From contig NZ_RWJX01000015.1 in the NCBI RefSeq assembly GCF_004123805.1, forward strand, positions 1 through 64,000: a DNA stretch of 64,000 nucleotides, in the 5' to 3' direction. The notes under the pieces are model-generated. The model made no database searches and had not been told where the DNA came from. It worked only from the letters and a program-made list of their open reading frames with translations. How positions within the stretch are numbered: the first letter of the stretch is position 1; the number at the start of each line of letters is the position of its first letter. Shown here in pieces: positions 3,761-49,128 of this stretch. The position numbers were made by a program, and so were the translations under genes. The DNA comes from Cellulomonas endophytica (GTDB taxonomy: Bacteria; Actinomycetota; Actinomycetes; Actinomycetales; Cellulomonadaceae).

Positions 3761-4549
3761 TCAGAGGACGTGCAGCGCCCCCGGCTCGGCCAGCACGACG
3801 TCCCCGTCGTACACCTCGCGCGCCTCACGGACGGCGACCCCGGGGTCGTTCCAGGCCGGCACGTGGGTGAGCACGAGCCGGGGCACCCCGCCCCGCGCCG
3901 CCGCCGCGCCCGCCCGCCGGCCCGTGAGGTGGACGCCGCGCACCGCGTCGTCGCGCCCCTCCACGTAGGCGGCCTCCGCGAGCAGCAGGTCCGCGCCGAG
4001 CGCGAGCGTGTCGAGGCCCTCGCACTCGTCGGTGTCGCCCGTGTAGGAGAGCGTGACCGGGCGGGCCGGGTCGCCCTCGGCCGGCCCCGTGACGCGCAGG
4101 CCGAACGCCGGCACCGGGTGGAGCACGGGCACCGCGACGACCGTGAACGGCCCGATCGTCACCGGCACCCCCGCCTCCCACGGCTGGAGGACGAGCTGGC
4201 CGGTCGCGTCGACGCCCGGGTCCTTGTCGGCGAGCAGCGCGAGCCACTCCCCCGCGTCGGCCGGCGCGTGCAGCGGCAGGGGCGGCAGGGGGCCGTCGGG
4301 CCGGTAGCGGCGCAGCACGTTGAGCACGAGCAGGTCCGCCGCGTGGTCCGCGTGCAGGTGGCTGATGGCGACCGCGTCGAGGGTCGTCGGGTCCCCCCAC
4401 CGCTGGAGGGGACCGAGCGCCCCGTTGCCGAGGTCGAGCACCACGGACCACGTCCGCCCGTCGGCGTCCTCCGCCTGGACGAGGTAGCTCGACGCGGCGG
4501 ACTCCGCGCTCGGGTAGGACCCGGCGCAGCCGAGCACGCGCAGCCTCAT
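3761..4549 (-). CDS. MBL-fold metallo-hydrolase (RNase Z/phosphodiesterase-like)
   Basis: The 262-residue protein has the metallo-beta-lactamase metal motif [10 protein letters not shown] near residue 75, a later GDTDECEGL segment and a C-terminal LVLTHVPAW, matching the RNase Z-like branch of MBL hydrolases. The substrate is unknown; in actinobacteria this gene regularly lies between murI and rph, a context that does not reveal its function. ATG at 4549 overlaps the murI stop as ATGA, indicating translational coupling. The 72-bp gap to rph and the separate rph -10 element suggest rph can also be transcribed independently. Confidence 0.85.
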
Positions 4550-35999: not shown

Positions 36000-36033
36000 C
36001 GGATCCGGCGGAGCGGACGCGACGAGGCGGGAC

Positions 36034-36186
36034 GGGAGGGCCGGGCGGGAGGGCCGGGAGGGCCGGGAGGGCCGGGCGGGAGGGCGGGGCGGGAGGGCCG
36101 GGCGGGACGGCGGGGCGGGAGGGCCGGGCGGGACGGCGGGGCGGGAGGGCCGGGCGGGACGGCGGGGTGGATCGGGAGGGTGGGGC
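36034..36186. repeat. G-rich minisatellite with 26-bp unit
   Basis: Repeated blocks of GGGCGGGAGGGCC type. An exact 26-bp period is seen at start positions 36104, 36130 and 36156. The many G runs on the plus strand could form quadruplex structures. Confidence 0.8.
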
Positions 36187-36187
36187 G

Positions 36188-37240
36188 TCAGACCGCGAGG
36201 CGCTCGACGCCGGCGGCGAACAGCCACGGCGCCCGCACCGCCGCCGGGACGAGCGCGCCCCGCAGCGGCGAGGTGGCCACGGCGACCAGCGTCGTCGTCA
36301 GCGCCCGGTAGTCGCGGGTCGCGGCGGACCACGCCCGCTCGTAGGCGTGCGGGTCCTCCAGGTGCGCGACGGCGGCGTGCGCCTGCGCCAGCCCGAGGCG
36401 CAGCCCCTCGCCCGTGAGCGCGTCGACGTACCCCGAGGCGTCGCCGACGAGCCGCACCCGTCCCGCCGTCCGGGCCCGGGTGCGCTGCCGCAGCGGCCCG
36501 GCGCCGCGCACCGGGCCGTCGTGCTCGGCACCGGCGAGCCGGCCCGCCAGCTCCGGCAGGCCCTGCAGCGCCCGGTCGAGGTCCAGGGGCGCGGGCCCGA
36601 GCACCGCGACCCCGACGAGGTCCGGCGCCACGGGCGTCACGTAGGCCTCGACGTCCCGGCCCCAGTGCACCTCGACGAGGTCCGTCCACGGCGCGAGGCG
36701 GTAGTGGCGGCGGAGGCCGTAGCGCCGGCGACCGACGGCTCGGGGCCGCTCCGGCACCTCCAGGCCCGCCAGCCGGCGCACGGTCGAGTGCAGCCCGTCG
36801 CACGCGAGCACCCAGCCTGCGGTGAGACCGTCGACCCCCGGCCCGGCCAGGCGCACGCCGTCGGGACCCTGCTCGATCCCGGTCACGCGCCCGGCCCGCC
36901 GCTCGATCCCCCGCTCCGCGACACGGTCGCCCAGGGCGGCGGCCAGGACGGTGCGGCGCACGCCCCGTCCGCCCGGCCCGGCGAAGCGGTGCTCCGCGCG
37001 CCGGGTGCCGCCGACGTAGGCGATGCCCGCCAGCCGGCGGCCGGGCGGGTCGACCCCCAGGCGCGCCAGACCCGCGACGGCCCCGGGCATGAGTCCCTCG
37101 CCGCACGCCTTGTCGACGGGGCCTTGGCGGGGCTCCACGACGAGCACGGACCGGCCCGCCGCGTGCGCCTCCAGCGCCGCTGCCAGCCCGACGGGGCCGC
37201 CGCCGACGACGAGCACGTCGACGTCGGGACGCGGGGTCAC
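36188..37240 (-). CDS. FAD-dependent oxidoreductase, geranylgeranyl-reductase-like
   Basis: The 350-residue flavoprotein has the Rossmann motif DVLVVGGGPVGLAAALEA, the family-defining DKACGEGLMPGAV, and the FAD-binding VRLVGDASGYVDALTGEGLR. This combination is typical of geranylgeranyl-reductase-related flavoproteins, some of which reduce prenyl chains and others hydroxylate aromatic rings. It is the last gene of the UbiA/type III PKS/methyltransferase operon, overlapping the methyltransferase stop by GTGA. Likely role: oxidation or reduction of the phenolic-lipid product. Confidence 0.85.
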   Translation of the reverse strand: MTPRPDVDVLVVGGGPVGLAAALEAHAAGRSVLVVEPRQGPVDKACGEGLMPGAVAGLARLGVDPPGRRLAGIAYVGGTRRAEHRFAGPGGRGVRRTVLAAALGDRVAERGIERRAGRVTGIEQGPDGVRLAGPGVDGLTAGWVLACDGLHSTVRRLAGLEVPERPRAVGRRRYGLRRHYRLAPWTDLVEVHWGRDVEAYVTPVAPDLVGVAVLGPAPLDLDRALQGLPELAGRLAGAEHDGPVRGAGPLRQRTRARTAGRVRLVGDASGYVDALTGEGLRLGLAQAHAAVAHLEDPHAYERAWSAATRDYRALTTTLVAVATSPLRGALVPAAVRAPWLFAAGVERLAV

Positions 37241-37857
37241 GGCCGTGCCGTCGAGGACGGCGGCCCGACCGGGCCGACCGGGCCGACCGGGCCGACCGGT
37301 GCGGCGGGTGCGGCGGGTGCGGCGGGTGCCGCCACCGCCTCGCGCAGCGCGCGCTCCTCCGCCGGGATGCGGAACCCGAGCAGCAGCACCGCGTTGAGCA
37401 CGGACGCCACGAGGGCCGTCACCCACGCGCCGTGCACCAGGGGCAGCGCCGCGAGCTCGAGGACGACCACGAGGTAGTTCGGGTGCGGCAGCCACCGGAA
37501 CCGGTAGGGCCCGCGCGTCACGAGCGGCAGGCCGGGCACCACGACGATGCGGGTGTTCCAGCGCTCGCCGAGCGAGGCGATGCACCACCACCGGACGGCG
37601 TTGGCGAGCAGGACCCCGGCGAGCGCCACCCAGCCCACGGCGGGCACGAACGGCCGGTCGGCCGCGTGCACCTCGACGACGCACCCGATCAGCCACGCGG
37701 TGTGCAGCGCGACCATGGCGGGGAAGTGGCCCCGGCCGTGCTCGGTGCCGCCGTGCGCGAAGGCCCAGGCGGCGTGCCGCCGGGAGACCACCATCTCGAC
37801 GAGCCGCTCCGCGGCCGCCGCGGCGACGAGCAGGTCGAACAGCAGGACGGACGACAT
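37237..37857 (-). CDS. Isoprenylcysteine carboxylmethyltransferase-family protein
   Basis: The 206-residue membrane methyltransferase has about four to five helices and the ICMT-type SAM-binding signature RGPYRFRWLPHPNYLVVVLE. Relatives encoded next to type III PKS genes (YpbQ/BpsB type) O-methylate alkylpyrones or alkylresorcinols. The C-terminus contains short tandem repeats of AAP and VGP. ATG at 37857 is 1 nt after the PKS stop, so the two are probably translated together. Confidence 0.85.
   Translation of the reverse strand: MSSVLLFDLLVAAAAAERLVEMVVSRRHAAWAFAHGGTEHGRGHFPAMVALHTAWLIGCVVEVHAADRPFVPAVGWVALAGVLLANAVRWWCIASLGERWNTRIVVVPGLPLVTRGPYRFRWLPHPNYLVVVLELAALPLVHGAWVTALVASVLNAVLLLGFRIPAEERALREAVAAPAAPAAPAAPVGPVGPVGPVGPPSSTARP
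37255..37335. repeat. 9-bp tandem repeats in the methyltransferase 3' end
   Basis: Four copies each of a CGACCGGGC-type and a GTGCGGCGG-type 9-bp unit encode the VGP and AAP repeats at the C-terminus of the methyltransferase. Being multiples of three they keep the frame, so length variation is possible without disruption. Confidence 0.7.
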
Positions 37858-37858
37858 C

Positions 37859-38908
37859 TCAGGACCCCCAGCGCAGCGCGACGAGCTCGGCGGTGACCCC
37901 GGGCCCGAACGCCAGGAGGACGCCGAGGTCGCCCGGGGCCGCGTCCGTCGCCGCGAGCACGTGGAGCACCGCGGCCGAGGACAGGTTCCCGGCGGCGGCG
38001 AGGGAGGCACGGCTCGTCGCGAGCGCGTGGTCGGGCAGGCCCAGCGCGTCCCCCACGGCGTCGAGGATCCGGGGGCCGCCGGGGTGGGCCACCCAGGCGT
38101 CGACGTCGGGGACCGTCGCGCCCAGGGGGGCCAGCAGCGCCGCCACGTCGTCGCCCACGTGCTGCGCGACGACGTCGGCCATGCCCCCCGACAGCACGAT
38201 CCGCAGGCCCGAGGAGCCGACGGACCAGCCGAGCGCGTCGGCCGTCCCCGGGTAGAGGGCCCGGTGCGTCCCGACCAGGTCCGGCCCGGGGCCCGCGCCG
38301 TGCCCGTCGCCGACCACCACGGCCGCCGCGACCCCGTCGCCGAACAGCCCGCTCGCGACGAGGTTCGCCGTCGAGTCGTCACCGTGCTGGAGCGTGAGGG
38401 AGCAGAGCTCGACGCACAGCAGCACGGCGACGTGGTCCGGGTGCCCCGCGAGCAGGTCGTCGACGCGGGCGAGCCCGGCGGCCCCGCCGACGCAGCCCAG
38501 GCCGAACCCCGGCCAGCGGCGCAGGTCCGGCCGCATCCCGAGCCGCTGCGCGACGAGCGCGTCGAGGGACGGGGCGTGCACGCCGGTGACGGTGGTGAAG
38601 ACGAGGTGGTCGACGTCGGCGGGGCGCAGGCCGGCGGCGTCGAGGGCGTCCCGCACCGCGCGCTCGGCGAGCTCCAGCCCCTCGCGCAGGAACAGGTCGT
38701 TGGCCTCCGTGAAGGACTGCACGGCGGCGTACTTCTCCAGGGGCAGCGCGAGGTGGCGCGTCCGGACGCCGGCCGAGGCGTGCACGCGGCGCAGGAGGGC
38801 CAGCCGGCGGGGGTCCGACGTCAGCAGCCCCGCGATCTCCTCGGTGATCTCCGCCTGCGGGTGCACGTGCTCGGGCAGCGCCGTGGCCACCGCCGCGATC
38901 CGGGACAT
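37859..38908 (-). CDS. Type III polyketide synthase (chalcone/alkylresorcinol-synthase family)
   Basis: The 349-residue homodimeric condensing enzyme uses acyl-CoA starters and malonyl-CoA extenders. The catalytic triad is intact: Cys139 in GFGLGCVGGAAG, His275 in WVAHPGGPRI and Asn308 in AAGNLSSAAV. The C-terminal FGPGVTAELVALRW matches the family. Bacterial relatives make alkylresorcinols or alkylpyrones from fatty acyl starters. A GAGCAT hexamer 7 nt before ATG 38908 is the only upstream signal seen. The product is not predictable from sequence. Confidence 0.93.
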   Translation of the reverse strand: MSRIAAVATALPEHVHPQAEITEEIAGLLTSDPRRLALLRRVHASAGVRTRHLALPLEKYAAVQSFTEANDLFLREGLELAERAVRDALDAAGLRPADVDHLVFTTVTGVHAPSLDALVAQRLGMRPDLRRWPGFGLGCVGGAAGLARVDDLLAGHPDHVAVLLCVELCSLTLQHGDDSTANLVASGLFGDGVAAAVVVGDGHGAGPGPDLVGTHRALYPGTADALGWSVGSSGLRIVLSGGMADVVAQHVGDDVAALLAPLGATVPDVDAWVAHPGGPRILDAVGDALGLPDHALATSRASLAAAGNLSSAAVLHVLAATDAAPGDLGVLLAFGPGVTAELVALRWGS

Positions 38909-38973
38909 GCCCCGGATGCTCGCACGCGACACGCCGCACCGCCGCCGGGGCGCGCGCGGACGCGGGCCGCTCC

Positions 38974-39825
38974 TCAGCCGCCGGCGACGAGGAGCACGAC
39001 GGCGATCCCGGCCACCGCCATCGCCGCGGTGAAGGGGCGGCGTCCCCCGGGGCGACGCACGGCCTCGAGCACGCACCAGGCCGTGAGGGCCGCGGCGCCG
39101 ACGAGCCCGGCGAGGGCGAGCGGCCCCGGCGCCCCGGCGGGGGCCAGCGCGACGAGGAGCACGGCCGCCAGCAGCAGCGCGACGGTCGCGAGCAGCGCCC
39201 GCCGCCGGCCCAGCCGGTGCGGCAGCCCGCGGACGCCGGTGGCGGCGTCGTCGTCGAGGTCGGGGAGCACGTTGGCCAGGTGCGCGCCGACCCCGAGCAG
39301 CGCGGCGGCGGCGGTCGTGGCGGCCGGGGCCGGCGAGCCCCCGGGGAGCGCGACCGTGGCGACCGACGGCAGGGTGCCGAAGGCCACCGCGTAGGGCAGC
39401 CACGACCACACGGTCGCCTTGAGACCGGCGTTGTAGGCCCAGCCGCCCGCCACGACGACGAGGTGCGCCAGGCCCGCGCGCACCCCGAGCGCCAGGGACA
39501 GCGGCACCGCGACGACGAGGGCGGCGAGCGCCGCGGTGCGCAGGAGCGGCGCCGTCACCTCGCCGGCGACGACGGGCTTGTCGGCCCGCCCGACGGCGAC
39601 GTCGCGCCCCGCGTCGATCCAGTCGTTGGACCACCCGATGCTCAGCTGGCCGGCCAGCACGGCGACTCCCACCGCGAGAGCCCGTGCGCCCAGCCCGACG
39701 CCGAGCGCGTACGCCACCGCGAAGGCCGTGACGGCCGCGGCGGGCAGGGGGTGGGTCGCCGCGACGAGCCCGTGCAGCCTGCGCACCGCCACCCCCACCG
39801 GCACCGCCACCTGCCCTCCGGGCAC
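38974..39825 (-). CDS. UbiA-family prenyltransferase
   Basis: The 283-residue integral membrane protein has about eight to nine helices and the two metal-pyrophosphate motifs of the superfamily: NDWIDAGRD (Asn67-Asp75) and DLDDD at residues 189-193, with YNAGLKAT in between. It should attach an isoprenoid chain to an acceptor. The exact start is uncertain because the N-terminus is a run of GTG codons near a GGAGGG. It is first in the operon with the type III PKS, so the polyketide is the likely acceptor or a linked intermediate. Confidence 0.9.
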   Translation of the reverse strand: MPGGQVAVPVGVAVRRLHGLVAATHPLPAAAVTAFAVAYALGVGLGARALAVGVAVLAGQLSIGWSNDWIDAGRDVAVGRADKPVVAGEVTAPLLRTAALAALVVAVPLSLALGVRAGLAHLVVVAGGWAYNAGLKATVWSWLPYAVAFGTLPSVATVALPGGSPAPAATTAAAALLGVGAHLANVLPDLDDDAATGVRGLPHRLGRRRALLATVALLLAAVLLVALAPAGAPGPLALAGLVGAAALTAWCVLEAVRRPGGRRPFTAAMAVAGIAVVLLVAGG

Positions 39826-47934: not shown

Positions 47935-49128
47935 GTGACGGGGACGGCTGCGGAGGCCGCCGGGCGGCACGCGGTGGTCGTGGGCGCCGGCATCGGCGGG
48001 CTGGCGGCCGCGGTCGGTCTCCACCGTGCGGGCTGGTCGGTGGGGGTGCTCGAGCGCGCGCCGGAGGTCCGGCCGGTGGGCGCGGGCATCGCGCTGGCGC
48101 CCAACGGGCTGCGCGCGCTCGACGTGCTCGGGCTCGGCGACGCCGTCCGCCGGCTCGCCTCGCCCCAGGGCGCCGGCGGGTTCCGCGAGCCCGGCGGGCG
48201 CTGGCTCCTGCGGCAGGACCTGGGCGCGGTGACGGCCGTGCTCGGGGACACCTTCGTCGTGCTCCGGCGGGCGGACCTCGTCGCCCTGCTGCTCGGCGCG
48301 CTGCCCGCCGGCACCGTGCGGACGGGGGTCGAGGTGCTCGCGGCCGACCCGGGGGACGCCCGCCGCCCGGCCACCGTGACGACGGCCGACGGCCGGGCGC
48401 AGGCCGACCTCGTCGTGGCGGCCGACGGGCTGCGCTCCCGGCTGCGGGGGGCGCTCTTCCCGGGCCACCCGGGCACCCGCCCCGCCGGCTACGTGGCGTG
48501 GCGGCTCCTGCCCCGGGTGGCCCCCGACGTCGCCCGGCTCGGGCAGTTCGAGACCTGGGGCCGCGGGCGGCGGTTCAGCGCGCTGGCCATGGCCGGCGGG
48601 GAGGTCTACTGCTGGGCCACGGTCTCGGCACCGCCCGGACGCCCGGTCGCCGACGACCGCGCCGAGCTGCTGCGGCTCTTCGGCGGCTGGCACGACCCCG
48701 TCGCGGCGCTCGTCCGGGCGACGCCGGCGGAGGCCGTGCTCCGGCACGACGTCCACGAGCTGGCGCGCCCCCTGCCCGCGCTGCGGGCCGGTCGCGTCGC
48801 GTTCGTCGGGGACGCCGGGCACGCGCTCACGCCGGACCTCGGGCAGGGCGGCGGCCTGGCCCTCGAGGACGCCGCGGTGCTCGCCCTGCGCGTGGGGGCG
48901 GCCGAGGACCTCGACGCGGCGCTCGCGACGTGGTCGGCGGAGCGGCTGCCGCGCGTGACGGCGATCGCGACCCGCTCGCGCCGCCTCGCACGCGTCGGCC
49001 AGCTGTCGGCGCCACCGCTCGTGGCGCTGCGGGCGCTCGGCCTGCGCACGGCCGGGCTCGTGCCCGCGGCCCTCACGGCGCGGGCGCTCACGCCCGTCGT
49101 CGGGTGGCGGCCGCCCGTGGTCGGCTGA
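47935..49128 (+). CDS. FAD-dependent monooxygenase (PHBH-like)
   Basis: The 397-residue flavoprotein has HAVVVGAGIGGLAAAVGLHR, the NAD(P)H-contacting DLVVAADGLRSRLR and the second FAD motif VAFVGDAGHALTPDLGQGG. It belongs to the class A aromatic hydroxylase/zeaxanthin-epoxidase-like group. The substrate is unknown. The GTG start is 10 nt after the DUF427 stop, so they form one transcriptional unit. Confidence 0.88.
   Translation: MTGTAAEAAGRHAVVVGAGIGGLAAAVGLHRAGWSVGVLERAPEVRPVGAGIALAPNGLRALDVLGLGDAVRRLASPQGAGGFREPGGRWLLRQDLGAVTAVLGDTFVVLRRADLVALLLGALPAGTVRTGVEVLAADPGDARRPATVTTADGRAQADLVVAADGLRSRLRGALFPGHPGTRPAGYVAWRLLPRVAPDVARLGQFETWGRGRRFSALAMAGGEVYCWATVSAPPGRPVADDRAELLRLFGGWHDPVAALVRATPAEAVLRHDVHELARPLPALRAGRVAFVGDAGHALTPDLGQGGGLALEDAAVLALRVGAAEDLDAALATWSAERLPRVTAIATRSRRLARVGQLSAPPLVALRALGLRTAGLVPAALTARALTPVVGWRPPVVG

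Follow-up and report, generated by a model that had tools for sequence, protein, structure and literature searches.

The question raised by this locus is what a bacterium makes when a type III polyketide synthase (PKS) is encoded in tight succession with a methyltransferase, a flavoprotein and a membrane prenyltransferase. The genes concerned lie on a contig (C57) of the 4.2 Mb genome of Cellulomonas endophytica, within a stretch of 64,000 nucleotides, the whole of which was analyzed and is referred to below as the window. They encode a UbiA-superfamily prenyltransferase, a type III PKS, a methyltransferase of the ICMT family and a flavin adenine dinucleotide (FAD)-dependent protein, in this order, and are separated by gaps of 65, 1 and −4 bp (Table 1). 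Gene calls and Pfam matches agreed with an initial annotation of the window, which had described the four genes in this order and with these gaps on the minus strand. The four genes very probably build a methylated phenolic lipid bearing an isoprenoid chain. More specifically, by analogy with related clusters, they probably constitute a four-enzyme pathway to an O-prenylated alkyl-methoxyhydroquinone lipid, close versions of which are already known in other actinobacteria. The gene set is real, intact and conserved as a unit, and its co-occurrence counts place the arrangement far beyond chance. A concrete product class can be sought in Cellulomonas-like bacteria.

Table 1. Genes of the four-gene locus, with positions in the window and the profile matches on which the assignments are based.
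Gene product	Position	Strand	Profile match
UbiA-superfamily membrane prenyltransferase (AgqD-like by context)	38974-39810	minus	Pfam UbiA, 82.4 bits (cut-off 34.2)
Type III PKS, alkylresorcinol/alkylpyrone group	37859-38908	minus	Chal_sti_synt_N/C, 81.4/69.0 bits (cut-off 27)
ICMT-family membrane methyltransferase, predicted phenol methylation	37237-37857	minus	Pfam ICMT, 94.9 bits (cut-off 24)
FAD-dependent protein, predicted alkylresorcinol hydroxylase (srsC/pkqC-like)	36188-37240	minus	FAD_binding_3, 53.1 bits (cut-off 22)

Conservation of the locus in Cellulomonadaceae

The family was surveyed in 200 genomes, with thresholds of E<1e-30 for the PKS, of which only the best piece in each genome was counted, and E<1e-50 for UbiA. 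The PKS was found in 144 genomes, UbiA in 143 and both in 142, leaving two genomes with the PKS only, in which it was located at a contig end (G109) or was a fragment (G133), and one genome with UbiA only. UbiA lay directly upstream of the PKS, at a distance of no more than 600 bp, in 124 of the 142 pairs: the two genes were on opposite strands in 107 of these and on the same strand, as in the window, in 17. The remaining pairs were within 5 kb (11), on different contigs (6) or far apart (1). All but one of the 17 codirectional pairs belong to the genus of the window, and this orientation is an inversion that left the UbiA-PKS pair together. Some of the six pairs on different contigs correspond to assembly breaks. 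Three genomes (G057, G164 and G182) carry the two genes far apart or on different contigs, with neither gene near a contig end, and have retained both. The co-occurrence, together with the retention of both genes after separation, rules out a fortuitous neighborhood.

The PKS, ICMT and FAD genes were codirectional in 45 of the 46 retrieved loci nearest to that of the window, a set in which some records are counted twice and some are metagenome-assembled genomes with no genus assigned; the remaining locus (L052) is truncated at the end of its contig. UbiA was also present at 40 of these 45 loci. Median gaps for the trio were 1 and −4 bp across 54 loci. The check proposed in the initial annotation, whether the gene order is conserved across actinobacteria, therefore yielded a conserved gene set, with the PKS and UbiA together in 142 of the 200 family genomes. 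Among the 18 named relatives of the PKS locus, the ones assigned to a genus belong to Cellulomonas, Cellulosimicrobium, Promicromonospora and their kin, with the exception of one weak match. Two plasmid records also matched the PKS: that of Streptomyces sp. NBC_01237 contains all four genes, with UbiA in divergent orientation, and that of Nonomuraea gerenzanensis contains only the PKS and ICMT genes. The UbiA query gave no match in the plasmid records, a result without weight, since the low-complexity filter hides the alanine-rich UbiA sequence.

The polyketide synthase and the methyltransferase

The Cys-His-Asn triad of the PKS, described as intact in the initial annotation, corresponds to Cys139, His275 and Asn308, and these residues were conserved in all 80 aligned PKS proteins. 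The nearest solved structure is PKS11. Trp228 occupies the position that, on the basis of chalcone-synthase numbering, we take to be that of Trp281 in ArsB, and a Trp was found there in 38 of the 39 PKS proteins of four-gene loci. This site is a Trp in ArsB, a resorcinol-forming enzyme, and a Gly in ArsC, a pyrone-forming enzyme, as described in PMC9927152. Trp228 is nevertheless a weak discriminator between resorcinol and pyrone, because PKS11, a named alpha-pyrone enzyme, has the same residue, and the assignment of a resorcinol product from Trp228 alone was rejected. A resorcinol product is likely on the basis of the operon context rather than of this residue. A separate type III PKS locus (34-36% identity), paired with a P450, recurs in Micromonosporaceae-like genomes (L114, L116, L118, L120, L125, L128 and L130).

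The core of the ICMT-family methyltransferase was conserved across 13 relatives. In the window, 9-bp tandem repeats (37261-37329) expand its C-terminus into a repeated APA/GPV tail, which is missing from all 13 of these relatives, the C-terminal tails of which differ.

The UbiA prenyltransferase

The exact start of the UbiA protein is uncertain, between about 39783 and 39825: the longest open reading frame extends to 39825, and homologs point to a start at about 39783-39810. Residues are numbered here from 39810. The metal motifs noted in the initial annotation were recovered in the alignment, with N62, D63, D66, D70, D184 and D188 conserved in 64 of 64 sequences and D187 in 41 of 64. The predicted model (pLDDT 92.4) has the standard UbiA fold, and the best PDB folds are those of archaeal UbiA enzymes.

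No NCBIfam model, those for MenA and haem O synthase included, passed its cut-off with this protein. The initial annotation had named a menaquinone or haem-type enzyme serving an unrelated pathway as a finding that would count against its reading; the protein is neither, because MenA (376 bits) and haem O synthase (411 bits) have genes of their own in the same genome. This candidate was excluded on both grounds. Two more UbiA-type prenyltransferases are encoded on contigs C98 and C131 (L003 and L005; PRK13105 and PRK13595). A polyprenyl synthase gene lies some 3 kb from the PRK13105-type gene, and both extra genes are perhaps carotenoid genes. The genome contains three polyprenyl diphosphate synthases, none of them on the contig of the window, and there is no prenyl diphosphate synthase in the cluster.

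The position at which the prenyl group would be attached requires separate consideration. UbiA might prenylate a ring carbon and so yield a prenylated alkyl-benzoquinone, an electron carrier comparable to a polyketide quinone to which another tail has been added. Such a product would suit the three-gene core, which matches polyketide quinone operons, and the UbiA model, which displays the general UbiA fold. It would also suit the report in PMC3227686 that the aromatic prenyltransferases of UbiA type acting in lipoquinone biosynthesis create C-C bonds. However, the sole characterized UbiA-like enzyme of a cluster of this kind, given as 'AqgD', is reported in the same source to O-prenylate an alkyl-methoxyhydroquinone. 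C- and O-prenylation are not distinguishable from the sequence or the fold of UbiA. We consider C-prenylation unlikely and retain O-prenylation of the alkyl-methoxyhydroquinone as the probable outcome.

Association of UbiA with the polyketide core across the class

The association was also investigated in 394 genomes of the class, with limits of E<1e-60 for a close PKS and E<1e-40 for UbiA. UbiA was present in 82 of the 120 genomes with a close PKS and in 36 of the 92 in which the PKS was distant. Ten of the 182 genomes in which no PKS was found also had UbiA; one of these 10 (G226, locus L136) has a PKS beside UbiA after all. The UbiA limit misses weaker matches in families f34 (e.g. L076, with UbiA beside the cluster) and f28. 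When family f12 is set aside, a close PKS was accompanied by UbiA in 82 of 98 sampled genomes. Fifty class PKS loci were selected among the highest-ranking matches of different families, with two each from genomes G262 and G300. The PKS, ICMT and FAD genes were together at 44 of these loci, 25 of which also contained UbiA. In all-against-all clustering of the genes around the loci retrieved up to that point, the families of the four genes had 81, 64, 60 and 50 members, the next largest family having eight. The three-gene polyketide-quinone core is thus tied to a prenyltransferase across much of Actinomycetes.

The same family of UbiA proteins is also found with other partners. In Micromonosporaceae-like genomes and some other families, it lies beside a class I methyltransferase, an acyl-coenzyme A (CoA) dehydrogenase-like protein and a PKS (37-40% identity), which is the gene arrangement described for losA (PMC7587189). 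This methyltransferase, dehydrogenase-like and PKS set was accompanied by UbiA at seven of the 37 loci of the second and third locus groups; three further such loci (L115, L117 and L121) have no UbiA. At four loci from Cellulomonadaceae and family f5 (L105, L106, L149 and L150), UbiA adjoins a more distantly related PKS as well as a different methyltransferase and a different FAD protein. A tree built from 68 UbiA rows united the third partner set in one clade (support 100), and neither the first nor the second set formed a single clade. Because the UbiA family remains constant while the methylating and hydroxylating partners vary, this pattern argues that UbiA acts on the shared phenolic product.

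Several observations weigh against a prenylated product of all four genes. A close PKS is present in 22 genomes of family f12, which probably corresponds to mycobacteria, and all 22 lack UbiA. The core was without UbiA within reach at 18 of the 50 class loci, 10 of the 18 genomes concerned having UbiA elsewhere. Of 20 UbiA loci picked because they were remote from any close PKS, 13 had no partner gene, so this UbiA family may have other uses. The co-occurrence counts are raw and include the effect of shared ancestry. Support for the backbone and the deep branches of the UbiA tree is weak, and a long branch puts the MenA outgroup row in the wrong place. Finally, neither a product nor a transcript nor an enzyme assay was found for this locus.

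Some of these observations would be expected if the PKS, ICMT and FAD proteins made an unprenylated alkylquinone, like the srs and pkq operons compared below, with UbiA as a coregulated neighbor serving another acceptor. The retention of the core without UbiA in f12 and the 13 UbiA loci lacking a PKS partner fit this explanation, as does the frequent divergent orientation of UbiA (107 of 142 pairs, within 600 bp). It is opposed by the co-occurrence of the two genes in 142 of 200 genomes and their joint retention when separated, and by the occurrence of the same UbiA family with three different PKS tailoring sets. An unprenylated product appears quite improbable, and the participation of UbiA in the pathway to an O-prenylated lipid is preferred.

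The FAD-dependent protein

Best-hit annotation mixes up ring hydroxylases and prenyl reductases, and the two can be told apart at this locus. The initial annotation had proposed that the FAD protein, as a geranylgeranyl reductase (GGR)-like enzyme, might reduce the prenyl group, and this was not borne out. The protein scored 85.3 bits with the GGR model TIGR02032, for which the cut-off is 158.8. Seven of the 25 four-gene class loci encode a second, reductase-like flavoprotein, and these second flavoproteins scored 166.3 (L083) and 173.2 bits (L078) with the same model; that of L107, which has a shortened start call, scored 107.8 bits, under the cut-off. All eight second flavoproteins in the alignment displayed YAW.F..GDG...(V/I)G(Y/F)G, in agreement with YxWxFP...GxG, which we take to be the GGR substrate motif. 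In the same region, the 11 rows of the window's FAD family instead had EAYVTP....(V/I)G(V/I)A, and thus no GGR motif. The CGEGLMP flavoprotein motif singled out in the initial annotation is present as regards CGEG, but is no marker of GGR, since the GGR-like rows carry CGDG at that place.

Searches of the PDB with single sequences gave, as the top matches of the FAD protein, PyrE3 (a Diels-Alderase that has the hydroxylase fold), an oxygenase of the angucycline type and rifampicin monooxygenase, with the archaeal reductase 3oz2 in 16th place; for the second flavoprotein of L083, 3oz2 ranked first. A profile of 16 sequences of the window's FAD family reached 3oz2 at 2e-13 (rank 7), and the predicted fold matched it at rank 20, with a TM-score of 0.65. 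The fold search was non-discriminating, with hydroxylases, halogenases and archaeal GGR all scoring 0.53-0.68 by query length among the best 50 matches. Ring hydroxylation is the better reading because loci without UbiA keep the FAD protein, which, from its sequence, is most likely a ring hydroxylase and not a prenyl reductase. That it is the prenyl reductase of the operon is highly improbable, for although its best NCBIfam model is that of the GG-reductase superfamily and both fold and profile reach 3oz2, it falls below the GGR cut-off, lacks the motif, has flavoprotein hydroxylases as its nearest PDB sequences, is retained without UbiA and is adjoined by a separate GGR-like gene at seven loci.

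No prenyl reductase, as a dihydro-prenyl product like that of the agq cluster (see below) would require, was found inside the four-gene cluster. Elsewhere in the genome, a homolog of the second flavoprotein (contig C35:260-1507, L133; 49-60% identity) has the full reductase motif and scored 172.9 bits with the GGR model (cut-off 158.8). At E<=1e-30, the C35 protein had matches in 13 of the 200 family genomes; apart from its own genome, three contained a match with 63-65% identity and nine a match with 40-48%. No gene neighbors were shared among the three genomes compared. With no shared neighbors and such rarity in the family, its involvement in the pathway is only a possibility. The second gene of the genome to exceed the GGR cut-off, on contig C86, is MenJ-like. 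The window also contains a second FAD_binding_3 protein (47935-49128), 8 kb from the cluster.

Proposed pathway

The type III PKS would extend a fatty acyl-CoA with malonyl-CoA and close the chain to an alkylresorcinol. The FAD protein would then hydroxylate the ring, and the ICMT-family enzyme would O-methylate the product. In the membrane, UbiA would join a prenyl group from its diphosphate to a phenol oxygen, and a separate reductase, such as the C35 homolog, may afterwards saturate a prenyl double bond. All of these reactions are modeled on related pathways, as are the order of the second and third steps, the preference for O- over C-prenylation and the length of the donor's prenyl chain. 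With an anteiso-C15 starter, the calculated compositions would be C20H34O2 for the alkylresorcinol, C21H36O3 (336.266) for the methoxyhydroquinone, C21H34O3 (334.251) for the corresponding quinone, C31H52O3 (472.392) for the O-geranyl form and C31H54O3 (474.407) for the O-dihydrogeranyl form.

A broader and more speculative scheme, which we regard as doubtful, can be outlined for many actinobacterial families. The polyketide-quinone operon would there be a four- or five-gene pathway ending in a prenyl ether, sometimes a dihydro-prenyl ether. This ether might serve to store the respiratory polyketide quinone in a capped form without redox activity. Family f12 would lack the capping, and at least three methylating and hydroxylating sets would be combined with a constant prenyltransferase family.

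Other features of the window

A scan of the locus for promoters and terminators detected nothing. A GC-rich array of 26-bp units lies 3' of the operon (36026-36167). A tRNA-Arg call (4394-4484) falls inside a called protein gene (3761-4549) on the same strand, and may be false.

Comparison with known systems

In the accounts available, the type III PKS locus of Cellulomonas and its relatives is reported simply as 'alkylresorcinol' (PMC8194134, PMC11261710, PMC11204466). At the type III PKS locus of Gephyromycinifex aptenodytis, UbiA, PKS, ICMT and FAD oxygenase annotations stand side by side, as they do here (PMC8779670). That locus differs in having been assigned there to angucycline formation. 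This assignment appears doubtful, because the same gene set is common across the class, and given this class-wide conservation a phenolic lipid would fit better. The losA locus of Micromonospora endolithica, which is associated with loseolamycin, resembles the present one in that UbiA and methyltransferase genes adjoin an alkylresorcinol-making PKS, but has an acyl-CoA dehydrogenase gene in place of the ICMT and FAD genes. As described in the same source, only alkylresorcinols were isolated when losA was activated in a foreign host (PMC7587189).

The srs operon of Streptomyces griseus and pkqABC of Mycobacterium smegmatis combine a PKS, a methyltransferase and a hydroxylase or oxidoreductase, and lead to alkyl benzoquinones (PMC9927152, PMC8730385). 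The likeness resides in the presence of these three functions in one operon and in the same order as here (PMC9927152), and the contiguous PKS, methyltransferase and flavoprotein genes were all found at our locus. The comparison, made by description, sets the two apart by gene number: the published operons have three genes and are complete without a prenyltransferase, whereas UbiA adjoins the trio here. The initial annotation had recognized an srs-type phenolic-lipid cluster with a likely prenylating step, and the srs/pkq-like trio with its UbiA gene supports this view.

The agq cluster of Actinoplanes missouriensis provides the precedent for such a prenylating step. It consists of agqA, encoding a type III PKS, and agqB-agqD, and its product is described as alkyl-O-dihydrogeranyl-methoxyhydroquinone (PMC7692728, PMC3569393, PMC10896814); PMC7093587 names two Streptomyces strains as having a cluster of the agq type. 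The statement in the initial annotation that no product had been assigned to such a gene order was thus too strong, as the agq product is in print and the four annotations are listed for Gephyromycinifex (PMC7692728, PMC3227686, PMC3569393, PMC8779670). For the PKS-ICMT-FAD-UbiA combination as such, a literature search that covered few subscription papers found no product. The agq cluster may use other tailoring enzymes, since the tailoring genes at Micromonosporaceae-like PKS-UbiA loci encode a class I methyltransferase and a protein resembling acyl-CoA dehydrogenases. Compared by description, agq and the Cellulomonas locus both have a type III PKS and a UbiA-like protein, which is reported to be an O-prenyltransferase in agq (PMC7692728, PMC3227686) and is probably one at the Cellulomonas locus. 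The Cellulomonas locus has a PKS of the alkylresorcinol kind and, beside it, a methyltransferase and a ring hydroxylase, the functions of which are assigned by homology.

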